This document shows, piece by piece, positions 4,438 through 23,816 of a stretch of DNA of 26,654 bases; position 1 is the first letter of the stretch; every line of letters starts with the position of its first letter. The stretch covers positions 1 to 26,654 of the IMG/VR virus record IMGVR_UViG_3300025168_000555, one strand, 5' to 3'. The notes beneath the pieces are model-generated. The model saw only the letters and a list, made by a program, of their open reading frames with translations, had not been told where the DNA came from and ran no database searches. This DNA is from a virus. Both the position numbers and the translations under genes were made by a program.

Positions 4438-4782
4438 ATGGAAAAGCTTACAGAGAATCAACTAGAAGAGGTGGTCTTTGATTTGGGTGCGGCTCGCAAG
4501 GGACAACTCAACGAAAATATCCTTCATGTCTTCGCAGCGTGGATTCAGTATCTTTTATCTAAGATGTTCAAAGGACGAAAAGTTCCTGTAAAAGTTCGTG
4601 GAAATCGGATAGAAATTTCTGCCTTTACTGACGCTTTGGTTAATGAGAAAAGATATATGAACTATATTAAAAAATATGGTTTAGATGATCCCATGACCTA
4701 TAAGCAGAAGGGCAAGTTAGATCTTGCAATTCGCAATTTTGAAAGAGAAGCAAAGATCAACTGGCCAATTCGCGGGCACTAG
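4438..4782 (+). CDS. Conserved-looking small phage protein, function unknown
   Basis: 114 aa, basic, preceded by a full AGGAGG Shine-Dalgarno (4425-4430) 7 nt before the ATG, so probably strongly translated. It begins with an acidic helix (EKLTENQLEEVVFDLGAARK), then an amphipathic segment around IQYLLSKMFKGRKVPVKVRG, and ends with MNYIKKYGLDDPMTYKQKGK and a WPIRGH tail. No transmembrane helix or enzyme motif is visible. It lies between the gp26-like pair and the tape measure gene, which argues for a tail or assembly role. I do not recognise a named family. Confidence 0.75.
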   Translation: MEKLTENQLEEVVFDLGAARKGQLNENILHVFAAWIQYLLSKMFKGRKVPVKVRGNRIEISAFTDALVNEKRYMNYIKKYGLDDPMTYKQKGKLDLAIRNFEREAKINWPIRGH

Positions 4783-4792
4783 GTGACTGACA

Positions 4793-7114
4793 ATGGCTAA
4801 TGGTGACGGAAATAATAGTCTACCTACCCCTGAACAGGTGGCGGCTGCGGCAGAGGCTGCAAAAAAACAAGCCAATTCGGCGGAGCTAGTCAACAAAAAA
4901 CTTGCAGACCAAGCTAAATTATTAGCCGAGTTAAACACGCTAGAAGATCAAATCAGGGATACTCGCGAGAAAGGTCTTCCTGTATCTGATTCGGCGAGAG
5001 TCCGTCAAATGCAGCTTACTGAAGCTACTGAGGACCTGAGGGCTGCCCTGGAAAGACAAGAGGCTGCATCCGCCAAAGCTAAGGCAGCAGAAGAACTTCT
5101 AGCTAACGCTCGCCAAGCCGGAACAACCGTCCTGAACAACATGGTGGGTGCTCAAAATATGGCAGCCACATCCCTGACAGGATTTACGGGGGCTGTTTTT
5201 GATCTCGTTAATAATTTGGATGAGGCAACAACAGGACTTGGCAAAACCACAGGTTATGTTAACTCCTTTAATAACGATATTATTAAATCAGCGAACGCAA
5301 CCAAAGACTTCTCCGTCTCCGTCGCAGAGGCTGCGAGTGCTATCGGTGGCTTATCTACTAATATGACCCTCTTCAATACTTTGGGGGCAGGACAAAGAGA
5401 ACAAATAACTAACACTACTCTTGCTCTGGAAAGGTTAGGCGTCAGTAGCCAATCCACAGGTCAGGCGCTAGATACTCTTACCCGAGGTATGGGACTAAGT
5501 GTTGCCTCCGCCGCTGATGCTGCACGCAGTTTTGATCAACTAGCTCAGAGCGTTGGCTTGCCAGTTACAGAGGTGATTGACGGCTTTAATCAGATTTCCG
5601 GCGACCTGTCTAGGTTCGGCACAGATGGTAAGAAAGTTTTTGCAGATCTTACCAAACAGGCACGTTCAATGGGTATTTCTATTCAAGAGGCTTTTGACCT
5701 CGCTGAGGCATTTGATACCTTTGAGTCCGCTGCTCAACTGGCAGGTAAACTAAATGCCCAGATAGGGCTCCAATTAAACTCAGTGGAGTTAATGAATGCT
5801 TCTCACGAAGACAGAATTAAAATTCTACAACGAGAGTTTAAGATGCGGGGTGAGAATTTTGATGATATGTCGCGGCGACAAAAGCAAGCCATTGCCGAAG
5901 TGATGGGTGTGGATGTAGATATGGCTTCTCGTATTTTTGGCGACCCCGTAAAGTTAAGAAAATACCAAAGAGAACAAAAAACTTTGGAAGAAAGAGCTAA
6001 AGCTGTCACGACAATCCAGCAAGACTTAAATAACTTGTTCCAGGAGATGATGCTTATTTTAGGTCCAGTGATTAGTGGTTTGCGTACTCTCACCAAATAT
6101 ATAGCTAGTTCTACTATCCCAAAATATCTTCTTCTTGGCGTAGCTATTACTAAGCTCGTTGGAGGAATGCCTTTGTTGATCAAGGGTATTGCTGGGTTAG
6201 TATCCAATTCAAGTATGTTGACGGGCATTGGTGAAAAGATGGGTAGCTATTTCAGTAGTGCAGGAAAAGGAGCAAACCAGTTAGCGGCAGGTACTCAAAA
6301 AGCAGGTAAAGCATCGGCAGCTAGTTTAGGAAGCCTTGCCGGTATGGCGTTAGTAATTGCAGCAATCGGCGCTTCTATATTCCTTGCCGCTACCGGAGTT
6401 GGTAATTTGGTTGCATCTTTCAAGGGGCTGGGAGACGCTGCTCCTTATGCCGTTCTCGGGATCGTAGCCTTCGCCGGAGGCATGGCACTCTTAATACCTG
6501 CTCTTGTGGCAGTGGGAACTGTTGGGTGGCCCGGTGTGGCAGCAATTTTAGCTCTAGGCGCTGCAACAATGATGATGGGGAAAGCTGTGCAGTGGGCTAG
6601 TGGTGGAATTACGAAACTTGTAGAATCAATTGGTACTCTAATTACAGGTGTTATGGGATCAATATCAGGAATCTTCAACTCTGTCAATGGATTTATTACA
6701 ACTTTGGCAAATATGGGAGCACTTCAGATAGGCAAGGTAGCTCTAGCAATCGTTGCCTTGGGGAAAGCCTTAGGCGAATTGCTGTCCATGGACACGGCTG
6801 GAGCACCAGCACTTCACAAACTATTGCACTCAATTGCACAAGCAGGAGATGGTCTAGAGAAAATCCAAGCTAATGCTGAGTCCCTCAAGTCACTGGAGCG
6901 TGTAATAAAGGTATCAACAGAATTGGATGCTGCAAACGTTGCAGGACTTCAGGCAATGGCACAGGTTGCTTCCGCTCCGGCGCAAGGCGCAGGGGCTGCC
7001 GCACCGAGTAAAAAATACAACATTCCAATTACGTTTAAAATTAATAATTCGGATATGCAAAAGTATGTTGTGGATATAGTTGATGAAGAATTTAATGTAA
7101 CGAGGGTCCGCTAA
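4793..7114 (+). CDS. Tail tape measure protein
   Basis: 773 aa. It sets tail length and is extruded before DNA during injection. The first 110 residues are Ala/Glu/Lys/Gln-rich and predicted coiled coil. A long helical region with phage tape-measure-like composition follows (Ser/Asn/Thr/Gly-rich with FDQLAQSVGL, SMGISIQEAFDLAEAFDTFE). The C-terminal third has strongly hydrophobic segments, near residues 430-460, 515-540, 550-600 and 640-665, as is usual for tape measure proteins that insert into the inner membrane. It ends in a short basic/acidic tail (VVDIVDEEFNVTRVR). The gene is the longest in the early tail module, follows the gp26-like genes, and starts at ATG 4793 with AGGTGA upstream, 10 bp after the preceding stop. 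No lysozyme or peptidase motif was seen. Confidence 0.85.
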   Translation: MANGDGNNSLPTPEQVAAAAEAAKKQANSAELVNKKLADQAKLLAELNTLEDQIRDTREKGLPVSDSARVRQMQLTEATEDLRAALERQEAASAKAKAAEELLANARQAGTTVLNNMVGAQNMAATSLTGFTGAVFDLVNNLDEATTGLGKTTGYVNSFNNDIIKSANATKDFSVSVAEAASAIGGLSTNMTLFNTLGAGQREQITNTTLALERLGVSSQSTGQALDTLTRGMGLSVASAADAARSFDQLAQSVGLPVTEVIDGFNQISGDLSRFGTDGKKVFADLTKQARSMGISIQEAFDLAEAFDTFESAAQLAGKLNAQIGLQLNSVELMNASHEDRIKILQREFKMRGENFDDMSRRQKQAIAEVMGVDVDMASRIFGDPVKLRKYQREQKTLEERAKAVTTIQQDLNNLFQEMMLILGPVISGLRTLTKYIASSTIPKYLLLGVAITKLVGGMPLLIKGIAGLVSNSSMLTGIGEKMGSYFSSAGKGANQLAAGTQKAGKASAASLGSLAGMALVIAAIGASIFLAATGVGNLVASFKGLGDAAPYAVLGIVAFAGGMALLIPALVAVGTVGWPGVAAILALGAATMMMGKAVQWASGGITKLVESIGTLITGVMGSISGIFNSVNGFITTLANMGALQIGKVALAIVALGKALGELLSMDTAGAPALHKLLHSIAQAGDGLEKIQANAESLKSLERVIKVSTELDAANVAGLQAMAQVASAPAQGAGAAAPSKKYNIPITFKINNSDMQKYVVDIVDEEFNVTRVR

Positions 7115-20197: not shown

Positions 20198-22065
20198 ATG
20201 AGCAAGACGTATCAACACAGATTTTATCTGACATCACAGTGTATATGAAATACGCCAGATACTTACCTGAAAAGCAGCGCCGTGAGACTTGGGAAGAACT
20301 AGTCGCTCGGAATATGGATATGCACATGAAGAAGTATCCTAACCTCAAGCAAGAGATCAAGGACAACTATCAGTTTGTGTATGATAAGAAGGTCCTTCCC
20401 TCTATGCGATCCATGCAGTTCGCAGGGAAACCTATTGAAATCTCACCCAATCGTGTATTCAACTGCGCCTATGCTCCCGTAGATGACTGGCGTGTGTTTG
20501 GTGAGATTATGTTTTTGTTGCTTGGTGGGACAGGCGTTGGCTACTCTGTCCAACAGCATCATGTTGACGAACTCCCAGAAATTCACAAACCAAACCCAGA
20601 AAGAACCCGGAGGTATTTAGTAAATGATAGCATTGAAGGATGGGCTGATGCAGTCAAACATCTTATCCGCAGCTACTTCTTTGGTGGCTCTAAGCTACGA
20701 TTTGATTATAGCGATATTCGCCCTAAGGGTGCTCGCCTTGTAACCTCTGGCGGCAAAGCCCCAGGACCCCAACCTCTCAAAGAGTGTCTGGTTAAGGTTG
20801 AGGGGGTCTTCCACGAAAAGTCTGATGGCGATAAGTTGTCTGCCATTGAGGTCCACGATATTGTTTGTTACATCGCCGATGCTGTTCTTGCTGGTGGCAT
20901 CCGCCGTGCTGCTTTAATCTCGTTATTCTCAGCAGATGACAACGAGATGATTGCCTGCAAGGCTGGCAACTGGTGGGAGACTAATCCGCAGCGTGGCCGA
21001 GCTAATAACTCAGCCGTGCTTTTGCGGCACAGAGTTACAAAAGAATTCTTCCTAGACTTATGGAAACGAGTGGAAGCCTCCAACGCTGGTGAACCCGGCA
21101 TCTACTTGTCCAATGACAAGGACTGGGGAACCAACCCATGCTGTGAGATTGGACTACGACCTTTTCAGTTCTGTAACCTGACTGAAGTAAATGTTAGTAA
21201 CATCACAGGACAAAATGATCTAGAGGAACGAGTGAGGGCTGCTACATTTATCGGCACACTCCAAGCAGGCTATACTGACTTCCATTATCTTCGCAACGTT
21301 TGGCAGCGAACAACTGAAAAAGATGCACTCATCGGTGTGTCTATGACAGGCATCGCTTCGGGTCGTGTGCTCCAAGACGACATTAGTTTGACGGATGCTG
21401 CGAACGTAGTGAAAGAAGAGAATGCCCGTGTTGCTGATAAGATTGGAATCAACCAGGCAGCCCGTACAACCTGCGTAAAACCTGCGGGCACCACGAGTTT
21501 GACCCTGGGAACATCCAGTGGCATCCATGCGTGGCACAACGATTATTATGTTCGCCGAATTAGAGTTGGCAAAAATGAGCCAATTTATTGGCACCTCGCT
21601 GTGAACCACCCAGAACTGGTGGAGGATGAGTACTTCCGTCCCCACGATACAGCCGTCATCTCAGTGCCCCAACGAGCACCCGAAGGTTCCATCCTGCGTG
21701 ATGAAAGTGCGTTCCAACTTTTGCGGAGAGTAAAGAAGATTACAAGAGAATGGGTCACCCCTGGCAAACGATCGGGTCAGAATGGACATAACGTCTCTGC
21801 TACCATCTCTCTCCACGAGAACGAATGGACAGATGCCGGCGAATGGATGTGGGAGAACCGCAAGCATTATAACGGATTAGCCGTACTTCCTCATAACGGA
21901 GGTACTTACCAACAGGCACCCTTTGAAGACTGCTCCAGGGAAAAGTTTGAAGCAATGATGTCTACGCTCCAGGATGTTGACCTCACCAAGATTGTTGAAG
22001 AGGATGACAACACCGACCTCAAGGGCGAAGCAGCTTGTGCTGGCGGTGCGTGCGAAATTACTTAA
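20194..22065 (+). CDS. Class II ribonucleoside-triphosphate reductase (adenosylcobalamin-dependent)
   Basis: 623 aa, monomeric-type (RTPR-like). It would reduce ribonucleotides to deoxyribonucleotides using cobalamin to make a thiyl radical. Motifs: VFNCAYAPV with Cys91 (redox pair with Cys327); NPCCEIGLRPFQFCNLTEVN (314-333) with radical Cys316 and Glu318, canonical NPCGEI; CVKPAGTTSLTLG (about 425-437, the P-loop-like substrate site); and the C-terminal regenerating pair CAGGAC (Cys615, Cys620). It is shorter than the Lactobacillus enzyme (739 aa), mainly by trimmed insertions, but no key residue is missing. AGGAG lies upstream of ATG 20194. No NrdB, NrdD or NrdG is nearby, consistent with a one-gene class II system needing host or environmental B12. 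Confidence 0.92.
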   Translation: MNEQDVSTQILSDITVYMKYARYLPEKQRRETWEELVARNMDMHMKKYPNLKQEIKDNYQFVYDKKVLPSMRSMQFAGKPIEISPNRVFNCAYAPVDDWRVFGEIMFLLLGGTGVGYSVQQHHVDELPEIHKPNPERTRRYLVNDSIEGWADAVKHLIRSYFFGGSKLRFDYSDIRPKGARLVTSGGKAPGPQPLKECLVKVEGVFHEKSDGDKLSAIEVHDIVCYIADAVLAGGIRRAALISLFSADDNEMIACKAGNWWETNPQRGRANNSAVLLRHRVTKEFFLDLWKRVEASNAGEPGIYLSNDKDWGTNPCCEIGLRPFQFCNLTEVNVSNITGQNDLEERVRAATFIGTLQAGYTDFHYLRNVWQRTTEKDALIGVSMTGIASGRVLQDDISLTDAANVVKEENARVADKIGINQAARTTCVKPAGTTSLTLGTSSGIHAWHNDYYVRRIRVGKNEPIYWHLAVNHPELVEDEYFRPHDTAVISVPQRAPEGSILRDESAFQLLRRVKKITREWVTPGKRSGQNGHNVSATISLHENEWTDAGEWMWENRKHYNGLAVLPHNGGTYQQAPFEDCSREKFEAMMSTLQDVDLTKIVEEDDNTDLKGEAACAGGACEIT

Positions 22066-22599: not shown

Positions 22600-23298
22600 A
22601 TGAAACAAATTATCAATGAGTGGAAAAAGTTTTTGAATGAGTCTGGGTTCAATAGGATCAAGAATATCCTGCAAGGTAAAGTAGCCTCTGTGGATACGGT
22701 TGGTTTCCTCACAGGTGAAAACCCCATGGCTCAAAAGATGTCTTCCAAGGAGAACCGAACTCTCAACAAGGAGTTGATGGCTTGGATGCGTGAACGAGGC
22801 TACGGGCCTATTCGTATCCGTGGGAAGTTTGGAAACAAAGAACGCTCAATGATTATTCCTAACATCACTAGGGAAGATATGGTAGAGGTTGGACAATACT
22901 TCACCCAAGAATCTGTTATCTGGGGAGAGAAGACCGGGGAAAACCAATTTGTATTTGAATACATTGAAGGCGACAAGACTATGCAGAAGAGAGATGTAGT
23001 TTTGTTTGACGATGAAGTTCAAGCCCGTGAAGATTTCTATTCCCAGGAGAGACAATCAGCCGGTCGCAAATTTTATATTCCTTTCTTTGACGACCAGTAT
23101 GAAATGGAAGAGGGCTTTGAGTACGATTACGACTTGCCCAGCCTAAGCGAAATTGAAAGAGAAAGTAATAGCGAACTCATTAAAGAAATTAATAACAGGA
23201 TTGGTTACACTTTGGAAGCAGACCGCCCTCCTAAGTCACGCTGGCATCACCGCCAAATCCTCCGTATTAAGCTTCGGGAACTAAAAAAGAAACTATGA
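22600..23298 (+). CDS. DUF3293-like accessory protein with capsid-targeting-type N-terminus
   Basis: 232 aa. Residues 1-15 (MKQIINEWKKFLNES) resemble the T4 capsid targeting sequence with an L-x-E site after residue 14. The next part contains TGENPMAQKMSSKENRTLNK and RERGYGPIRIRGKFGNKE, then IPNITREDMVEVGQYFTQES. This arrangement (xNP...EN..., RGYG, I..ED......QES) matches my recollection of DUF3293-like proteins found in phages and bacteria, of unknown function. The rest is acidic, then a basic C-terminus. The ribosome-binding site is weak, 4 bp after the GroES-like stop, suggesting coupled translation. Its stop overlaps the next ATG. Confidence 0.6.
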   Translation: MKQIINEWKKFLNESGFNRIKNILQGKVASVDTVGFLTGENPMAQKMSSKENRTLNKELMAWMRERGYGPIRIRGKFGNKERSMIIPNITREDMVEVGQYFTQESVIWGEKTGENQFVFEYIEGDKTMQKRDVVLFDDEVQAREDFYSQERQSAGRKFYIPFFDDQYEMEEGFEYDYDLPSLSEIERESNSELIKEINNRIGYTLEADRPPKSRWHHRQILRIKLRELKKKL

Positions 23299-23816
23299 AA
23301 AAATTAATCAAAGACTTTAAGCAATTCCTCACTGAAGCACAAAAGAGCGACTACGACTCTGGTGGAGAAATTATGCTCTACCATTATGCTCCAGTGGACG
23401 CTGATCAGATTATCGTGGATCCAAAATACTTTGCGGACAGAGCTAAAAGAAGCACGTTTAGTATGAGAGAATATGAAACAAGCACAGTGCCCCGAACCTT
23501 TTGGTATGTGGATGCAACGCAAAGAGAGAGGCAGGTTTCCTCAGGACGTAATCTATATGCTGCAACTATCCCTGCTGGTGAAATCTATGACTTTAGGAAT
23601 GACCCCGAGGGTCATAAAGAGATGCACGCCCACCCCACCTATGGGCTACGAAAAGGCGTAGAGTGGAATGAGATGTTAGAGCACATCCGAGAAAGCTATG
23701 CCGGCATTTATTATTCACTAAACAATTTTGACGTGGTGTCCCTCTTTGTGCCATATGAAGCAACGAGAGTATCACCAGAAGAACAAGCCCAACTAGAAGG
23801 CAGCCAGGAAAGGTAA
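23295..23816 (+). CDS. Accessory protein with capsid-targeting-type N-terminus
   Basis: 173 aa starting in an ATGA overlap. Residues 1-16 (MKKLIKDFKQFLTEAQ) are similar in pattern to the upstream neighbour and to the T4 tag MKTYQEFIAEA, with a predicted L-T-E|A protease site. The rest begins LYHYAPVDADQIIVDPKYFA and contains VPRTFWYVDATQRE and LYAATIPAGEIYDF. The LYHY strand and later S-T and E residues are loosely reminiscent of ADP-ribosyltransferase-like folds, but I cannot demonstrate this. Unknown function; packaged ejection protein is a hypothesis. Confidence 0.55.
   Translation: MKKLIKDFKQFLTEAQKSDYDSGGEIMLYHYAPVDADQIIVDPKYFADRAKRSTFSMREYETSTVPRTFWYVDATQRERQVSSGRNLYAATIPAGEIYDFRNDPEGHKEMHAHPTYGLRKGVEWNEMLEHIRESYAGIYYSLNNFDVVSLFVPYEATRVSPEEQAQLEGSQER

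Follow-up and report, generated by a model that had tools for sequence, protein, structure and literature searches.

A common N-terminal tag on a SAM-lyase-like DUF3293 protein and a protein with a probable ADP-ribosyltransferase fold points to head delivery in T4-like phages

Introduction

The IMG/VR virus record IMGVR_UViG_3300025168_000555 is a phage fragment of 26,654 bases, which was analyzed in its entirety and is referred to here as the window. Its source phage is marine and T4-like. Two adjacent genes of the window encode protein 1 (232 residues, start MKQIINEWKKFLNES) and protein 2 (173 residues, start MKKLIKDFKQFLTEAQ), both of which open with an ungapped [WF]xxFLxE tag. We consider it likely that the two proteins are packaged into the phage head, cleaved by the prohead protease gp21 and injected as effectors, protein 1 probably degrading S-adenosylmethionine (SAM) of the host on entry. 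On balance, we also favor a more general reading, according to which marine and freshwater T4-like phages use a common head-delivery code of exchangeable [L/I]xE tags on dozens of enzymes, here a SAM lyase and an ADP-ribosyltransferase (ART), and the whole of DUF3293 belongs to the SAM-lyase superfamily.

Results

Proteins 1 and 2 share an N-terminal tag

Both open reading frames (ORFs) were present as described in a first-pass annotation of the window (Table 1), which had pointed to like N-termini on otherwise unlike proteins. The ORFs, Pfam results, predicted folds and tag counts bore this out: beyond the tag, the two proteins are unrelated and gave differing Pfam results and differing folds. 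For the counts, the tag core was set as [WFY]xx[FYW][LIVM]xE within the first 25 residues. It occurred twice in the window, whereas the remaining proteome predicts 0.06 occurrences (P = 0.0018). Two relatives are collinear with the window, namely G002, a record of 171,926 bases, at 26-55 kb and G004 at 30-60 kb. G002 contained the core six times versus 0.66 expected (P = 7e-5), and 1000 shuffles gave a mean of 0.5 and a maximum of 4. A motif-free comparison of the G002 N-termini yielded 31 pairs scoring at least 40, a few of which are ordinary homologues, as compared to two pairs for residues 26-47 and one for shuffled N-termini. Clustering of these N-termini revealed a type A group of eight proteins (MKxLxExWRKFLxE) and a type B group of six proteins (MKITKSQLRKIIKEE). 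In T4, which served as the positive control, the same core recovered ipII, ipIII, gp61.1 and one other start versus 1.4 expected, the test being weaker there. The small T4 protein gp61.1 (L468 18966-19130), of unknown function, starts with MKTFKEFIKED and thereby resembles a capsid-targeting sequence.

The two starts had also been likened to the T4 internal-protein tag MKTYQEFIAEA. This held for ipII and ipIII, which start in this way, and failed for ipI, which starts with MKTFKEFTSTTT. For the tag of protein 2, an even better alignment was obtained with the stretch EKIAQAFGSFLTE/A of T4 gp23 (shuffle P 0.002 against EKIAQAFGSFLTEAE of gp23). We take this stretch as the gp23 maturation site because its residue number, 65, agrees with a gp23 propeptide length of 65 residues (PMC9026906). 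Similarity between the type A tag and the capsid-protein propeptides of G002 and G004 was weak (shuffle P 0.03-0.8, uncorrected). Mimicry of the capsid-protein propeptide helix by the tag is a lead from these comparisons. In the AlphaFold 2 (AF2) model of protein 1, the tag appeared as a detached, low-confidence helix. A tblastn search of cultured phages with the 22-residue tag peptides gave no match, the queries being too short.

Of 47 identical tag residues other than Trp and Met, 27 were encoded by different codons. Thus, it is the peptides that are conserved, not copied DNA, and recent copying of the gene start was ruled out.

Unrelated proteins carry the tag in phages with gp21

Further tagged proteins and a gp21-like prohead protease, both named in the first-pass annotation as things to look for, were found. 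In addition to the eight type A and six type B proteins of G002, a degenerate DNA pattern for the type A tag gave 95 matches in IMG/VR, 91 of which open a frame of at least 60 residues. These amounted to 78 distinct proteins, which fell into 45 groups sharing no detectable similarity once the tag was removed, and the type B pattern retrieved 95 proteins in 79 groups. The cargo of tag A included a zeta-toxin-type kinase, NUDIX, C39 peptidase, GNAT, HD, ParB, AAT and ART-PolyVal domains as well as two kinds of 2H phosphoesterase. The gp21-like protease (PF03420, E ~1e-29) was present in both G002 and G004, where it adjoins TerL, the portal, the scaffold position and a gp23-like capsid protein. 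In both relatives, the head genes lie upstream of the part collinear with the window; in G002, PHROGs matches identified them as terminase, portal, a protease of the gp21 type and a capsid protein of the gp23 type. A gp21-type protease was encoded in 26 of 32 tagged contigs of at least 100 kb and in all 20 of those of at least 147 kb, counts that cover tagged contigs only.

The tag might serve as a scaffold-docking signal only, in which case the proteins would aid head assembly or be cut and lost and would not be injected effectors. The T4 core proteins gp22, gp67 and gp68 are likewise gp21 substrates (PMC9026906), and a type-B-like tag is found on a small protein adjoining gp21 in G004. We consider this explanation improbable, given that the tagged domains are diverse enzymes (SAM lyase, zeta-toxin kinase, NUDIX, C39 peptidase, GNAT, 2H phosphoesterase and ART) and that tagged enzymes are still detectable in mature virions of S-CREM2, according to its published virion list.

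Variable tags precede a conserved junction

The homologues of protein 1 (n = 31, down to ~27% identity) carried tags of type A, type-B-like or T4-like tags, which were 14-41 residues long. Nevertheless, [LIVM]xE occupied the column preceding the domain in 30 of the 31 proteins, followed mostly by S, A, G or T. The same junction was present in 23 of 23 homologues of protein 2, here followed mostly by A. Residues W8, F11 and E14 of the protein 1 tag showed no variation in 12 close homologues. The N-terminal pattern, whose absence from close homologues would have counted against the first-pass annotation, was found in close and distant homologues. The cleavage motif of gp21 is L/I-x-E (PMC9026906), and a junction that is kept while the tag changes would look like a gp21 processing site.

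Protein 1 is probably a SAM-lyase-like enzyme

Protein 1 matched DUF3293 (PF11697) with 37.3 bits, above the cut-off of 25, in agreement with the DUF3293-like label previously given to one of the two proteins. Its AF2 model had a predicted local distance difference test (pLDDT) score of 82. Foldseek returned structures of the T3 SAM lyase and Svi3-3 as the top five PDB matches, followed by a gap. VIA-align placed the T3 SAM lyase first (Z 14.0, root-mean-square deviation 2.5, 131 residues, model residues 21-167), and the next unrelated row had a Z of 6.8. Residues G75, E81, S83 and Q103 were invariant among the 31 homologues. They align with G56, E69, S71 and Q104 of Svi3-3, and G75, E81 and Q103 align with G55, E68 and Q94 of the T3 enzyme. 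The four Svi3-3 residues bind SAM; Gly56, Glu69 and Gln104 are strictly conserved, and Tyr58 packs on the SAM sulfur (PMC7877911). The Y58F exchange lowers Svi3-3 activity fivefold, and loss of the active-site Glu nearly abolishes it (PMC7877911). The position equivalent to Tyr58 is a Tyr in some homologues of protein 1, e.g., in loci L113 and L126.

In four related contigs (L081, L082, L083 and L085), the place of protein 1 upstream of the protein 2 gene is taken by a related tagged protein. The two of these four that were scanned, L081 and L085, scored over the cut-off of the SAM-lyase family PF23780, with 56.4 and 58.5 bits, respectively, and the L085 protein matched the protein 1 profile with an E of 5e-14. 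PDB sequence searches with the profiles of proteins 1 and 2 and with L081 gave nothing useful. On the basis of the computed fold and active-site residues, protein 1 is probably a SAM-lyase-like enzyme.

A packaged protein 1 might instead bind SAM or a derivative without being a SAM lyase, for example by destroying the SAM-AMP of type III CRISPR systems or by blocking the SAM synthetase of the host. SAM-AMP lyase structures did appear in the VIA-align list of protein 1, but with a Z of 4.8, level with unrelated rows. The T3 enzyme and host MAT are described to form heteropolymers in PMC8406200, and F77 of protein 1 occupies the Tyr position whose change to Phe impairs Svi3-3. We regard a non-lyase function as unlikely, as the T3 SAM lyase is the best and a clear structural match, the key Glu and Gln are invariant, and tagged homologues in the same place exceed the SAM-lyase Pfam cut-off.

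Protein 2 probably has an ADP-ribosyltransferase fold

The AF2 model of protein 2 had a pLDDT of 84 and a predicted template-modeling score (pTM) of 0.80. Nearly all rows returned by VIA-align were ART-fold proteins, comprising RES and ParT toxins, NatT, diphtheria-type enzymes, PARPs and an ART-like anti-CRISPR protein; the best Z was a modest 7.3. The BFVD matches included PolyVal ADP-ribosyltransferases (E 5e-5 and weaker) and a Flavobacterium phage structural protein. Protein 2 had no Pfam match at E ≤ 1 and hence none to ART-PolyVal (PF18760). The models suggest that protein 2 probably adopts the ART fold.

A giant virion-type protein of elemoA (3668 residues) contains a protein-1-like domain at residues 1292-1405 (E 6e-28) and, in the same chain, a protein-2-like stretch at residues 2068-2163 (E 8e-7, one-sequence search). 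The occurrence of both domain types in one chain thus links the functions of proteins 1 and 2. The label "structural protein" of the elemoA protein was not traceable to mass spectrometry.

Tagged homologues are found in virions of cultured relatives

Homologues of protein 1 were also identified in cultured T4-like cyanophages, in Campylobacter, Microcystis and Alishewanella phages and in the metagenome-derived Lak megaphages. All carry tags of their own ahead of the conserved junction, which is of the ES/SLSR[LI] type in the cultured T4-like phages (Table 1). The homologues that were scanned, those of S-CREM2, P-TIM68 and CPt10, scored over the SAM-lyase Pfam cut-off. In S-CREM2, mass spectrometry of virions purified on CsCl identified the SAM hydrolase ORF6 by 19 unique peptides (PMC10665884 Table 3); the virion proteomics suggested as a check in the first-pass annotation has, for this tagged homologue, given a positive result.

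To relate tag and virion presence in S-CREM2, the core was fixed beforehand and applied to 188 coding sequences, some of the shortest ones and one long one being left out. It picked five of the 188, four of which are on the published virion list. These four, the SAM hydrolase, an APH/ChoK-like kinase, a cytidylyltransferase and a Cas9-labeled protein, are all the non-structural virion enzymes on that list except endolysins. The association was significant by Fisher's test (P = 0.004 for non-tail coding sequences, P = 0.021 for all). Three more hypothetical proteins on the list have tag-like starts that the strict core missed (Table 1). The NMNAT of S-SCSM1, listed as a virion protein in PMC9602691, starts with MKSFLQFLKEA.

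The shared N-terminus could also be unrelated to the head and represent a generic amphipathic start, a recently copied 5' end or another localization signal, the virion detections then being contaminants, which the cyanophage authors themselves mention. This seems very unlikely to us in view of the codon divergence among the tags, the [LIVM]xE junction that stays fixed while tags change, the presence of gp21 in tagged phages, the likeness to the T4 gp23 propeptide and the fact that the tag predicts virion detection in S-CREM2.

Discussion

The first-pass annotation had proposed that both proteins are loaded into the capsid and ejected with the DNA. Loading is supported by the spread of the tag, gp21, the junction and the S-CREM2 virions; ejection and the exact cut site we infer. 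In the proposed mechanism, the ~14 N-terminal residues would fold into an amphipathic helix, through which the protein would dock onto the scaffold core inside the prohead. The tag would then be cut off after its terminal [L/I]xE by gp21, the prohead protease of family S77, as motif and conservation suggest. As in T4, the freed enzymes would remain with the packaged DNA and be ejected along with it. Once in the host, protein 1 would degrade SAM via a lyase reaction, and the loss of SAM would starve SAM-dependent restriction and methylation ahead of any phage gene expression. Protein 2 would probably ADP-ribosylate a host target in a T4 Alt-like manner. The likely benefit would be that DNA entering the cell is shielded from SAM-dependent restriction, an argument already made for T3 and S-CREM2.

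Several observations weigh against this interpretation. A gp21 gene was not found in the 26.7-kb window, a fragment without the head module, and the association of tag and gp21 was seen in tagged contigs alone, without comparison to untagged large contigs. Protein 1 scored 17.3 bits against PF23780, under the cut-off of 28, and is therefore filed as DUF3293, related to SAM lyases and outside PF23780. Its Phe77 takes the Tyr58 position. Alignment of the protein 1 profile with the T3 SAM lyase by hhalign gave no sequence-level match; the T3 link therefore rests on structure, the L085 bridge and the motifs. The probable ART assignment of protein 2 comes with a modest Z (7.3). Finally, the virion proteomics comes from cultured relatives, the present phage being uncultured, and the authors of the S-CREM2 and S-SCSM1 studies allow for contamination of CsCl bands by such enzymes (PMC10665884, PMC9602691).

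Capsid targeting sequences are already known from T4, as is a packaged SAM hydrolase from S-CREM2. Like T4 IPI, IPII, IPIII and Alt, proteins 1 and 2 have in common a short N-terminal peptide with an (I/L)xE end on unrelated proteins, and, as in T4, a gp21 protease and a T4-type head module are present, here in G002 and G004, with which the window is collinear. Alt is an ART-class enzyme, and protein 2 is ART-like. Unlike the T4 consensus KTYQEFIAE, the tag reads LxExWRKFLxE here, and there are far more cargo families, their packaging being predicted. We know of no SAM-lyase-like cargo reported for T4. Protein 1 shares with the T3 SAM lyase (gp0.3) and Svi3-3 (PF23780) the fold and, in the same order, the Gly, Glu, Gln and an acidic neighbor. 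It differs from them by the Phe in place of Tyr58, the sub-cut-off score, the capsid tag and a C-terminal extension. Moreover, T3 produces its enzyme after entry, whereas protein 1 would be carried in. S-CREM2 ORF6, detected in virions according to the published list, belongs to a homologous enzyme family and has a tagged N-terminus in a T4-like phage (PMC10665884), but its tag is of the T4/cyanophage type (MKDFDSFLEEF). Phage polyvalent proteins (PMC5512222) are likewise capsid-delivered conflict enzymes, and elemoA has both domain types; there, however, the domains are fused in giants, whereas the present phage encodes them as individual small proteins that each bear a tag of their own.

In the open-access literature searched, we found no report of the tag in these phages or on dozens of enzyme families, nor of DUF3293 as a SAM-lyase relative. 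The available parts of the S-CREM2 and S-SCSM1 papers name no tag (PMC10665884, PMC9602691), and those of the former do not link the packaged enzymes to one another, although anti-restriction on entry is already proposed there. The injected proteins of phages are normally learned from virion proteomics alone. If the tag predicts injection, sequence data could be used to list what thousands of uncultured T4-like phages inject, and a time and place of action, namely the host at entry, could be assigned to many unknown proteins. The tag would also offer an explanation for enzymes that recur in cyanophage virions, and DUF3293 would gain a fold and a likely chemistry. The suggested anti-restriction tactic is delivery of a SAM-destroying enzyme with the DNA; T3 instead expresses its enzyme first.

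Gene neighborhood and further tagged proteins

Table 1. Coordinates and sequences of the tagged proteins and related features
Feature	Location	Strand	Sequence or basis
Protein 1, tagged DUF3293 with SAM-lyase-like domain	window 22600..23298	+	PF11697, AF2, VIA-align, Foldseek
SAM-lyase-like domain of protein 1 (~residues 21-167)	window 22660-23100	+	structure match
Protein 1 tag, residues 1-14 (gp21 predicted to cleave after E14)	window 22600..22641	+	MKQIINEWKKFLNE
Protein 2, tagged, probable ADP-ribosyltransferase fold (~residues 22-170)	window 23295..23816	+	AF2, VIA-align, BFVD
Protein 2 tag, residues 1-14 (gp21 predicted to cleave after E14)	window 23295..23336	+	MKKLIKDFKQFLTE
Stop of protein 1/start of protein 2, overlap of 4 nt	window 23295..23298	+	ATGA (sequence)
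Type B sites, G002	L027 2907-3789; L030 7963-8418; L031 11340-11534, 15250-15540
Type B sites beyond G002	G004; many IMG/VR loci (L230-L307)
Homologue tag/junction, P-TIM68			MKTYKEFIQDIQES/SLSRI
Homologue tag/junction, AG-345-L05 (single-cell genome)			MKTFKEFLEES/SLSRI
Homologue tag/junction, S-CREM2			MKDFDSFLEEFDRDQESLEES/SLSRL
Homologue tag/junction, S-N03			MKNFEEFKEQAQEELEES/SLSRL
Homologue tag/junction, Mel-JY01			MQFKQYILGES/SLSRI
Homologue tag/junction, Lak-A2			...NELNEK/SLNRM
Tag-like starts, S-CREM2	L482 10310-10546, 12843-13331; L484 7301-8014		MKDLHSFLTEQ, MNFSEFNESLQ, MQTFSMFFSED

The ATGA overlap likely results in translational coupling of proteins 1 and 2, and in 23 of 35 loci, no more than 60 nt separated the end of protein 1 from protein 2. 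Directly upstream of protein 1, the window encodes a GroES-like protein (Cpn10, PF00166; 22329-22595), perhaps the counterpart of T4 gp31. Small genes resembling it are also located upstream of protein 2 in some relatives (L062, L073). In these two loci, both of which are without protein 1, a SAM synthetase gene (metK) directly follows protein 2 (4488-5486 and 4535-5503, respectively), which further hints at a connection between the locus and SAM.

The 79 unrelated groups with the type B tag, which ends in IxE, are mostly small proteins, often encoded by consecutive genes. A 395-residue protein of G002 (L027 1723-2910) contains internal copies of the type B motif (MRITKSQLQQIIREE, TKITKTQLQQIIKEE), which would fit a polyprotein for gp21 cutting or a fusion of tagged genes. 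The type-B-like tagged protein near gp21 in the head module of G004 has 131 residues (L037 1628-2023, corresponding to G004 21628-22023) and is a possible core or scaffold protein. A 237-residue protein of G002 (L031 12804-13517) starts with MIEILRELIMEE and contains a HELEH motif, so that it is possibly a tagged metallopeptidase.
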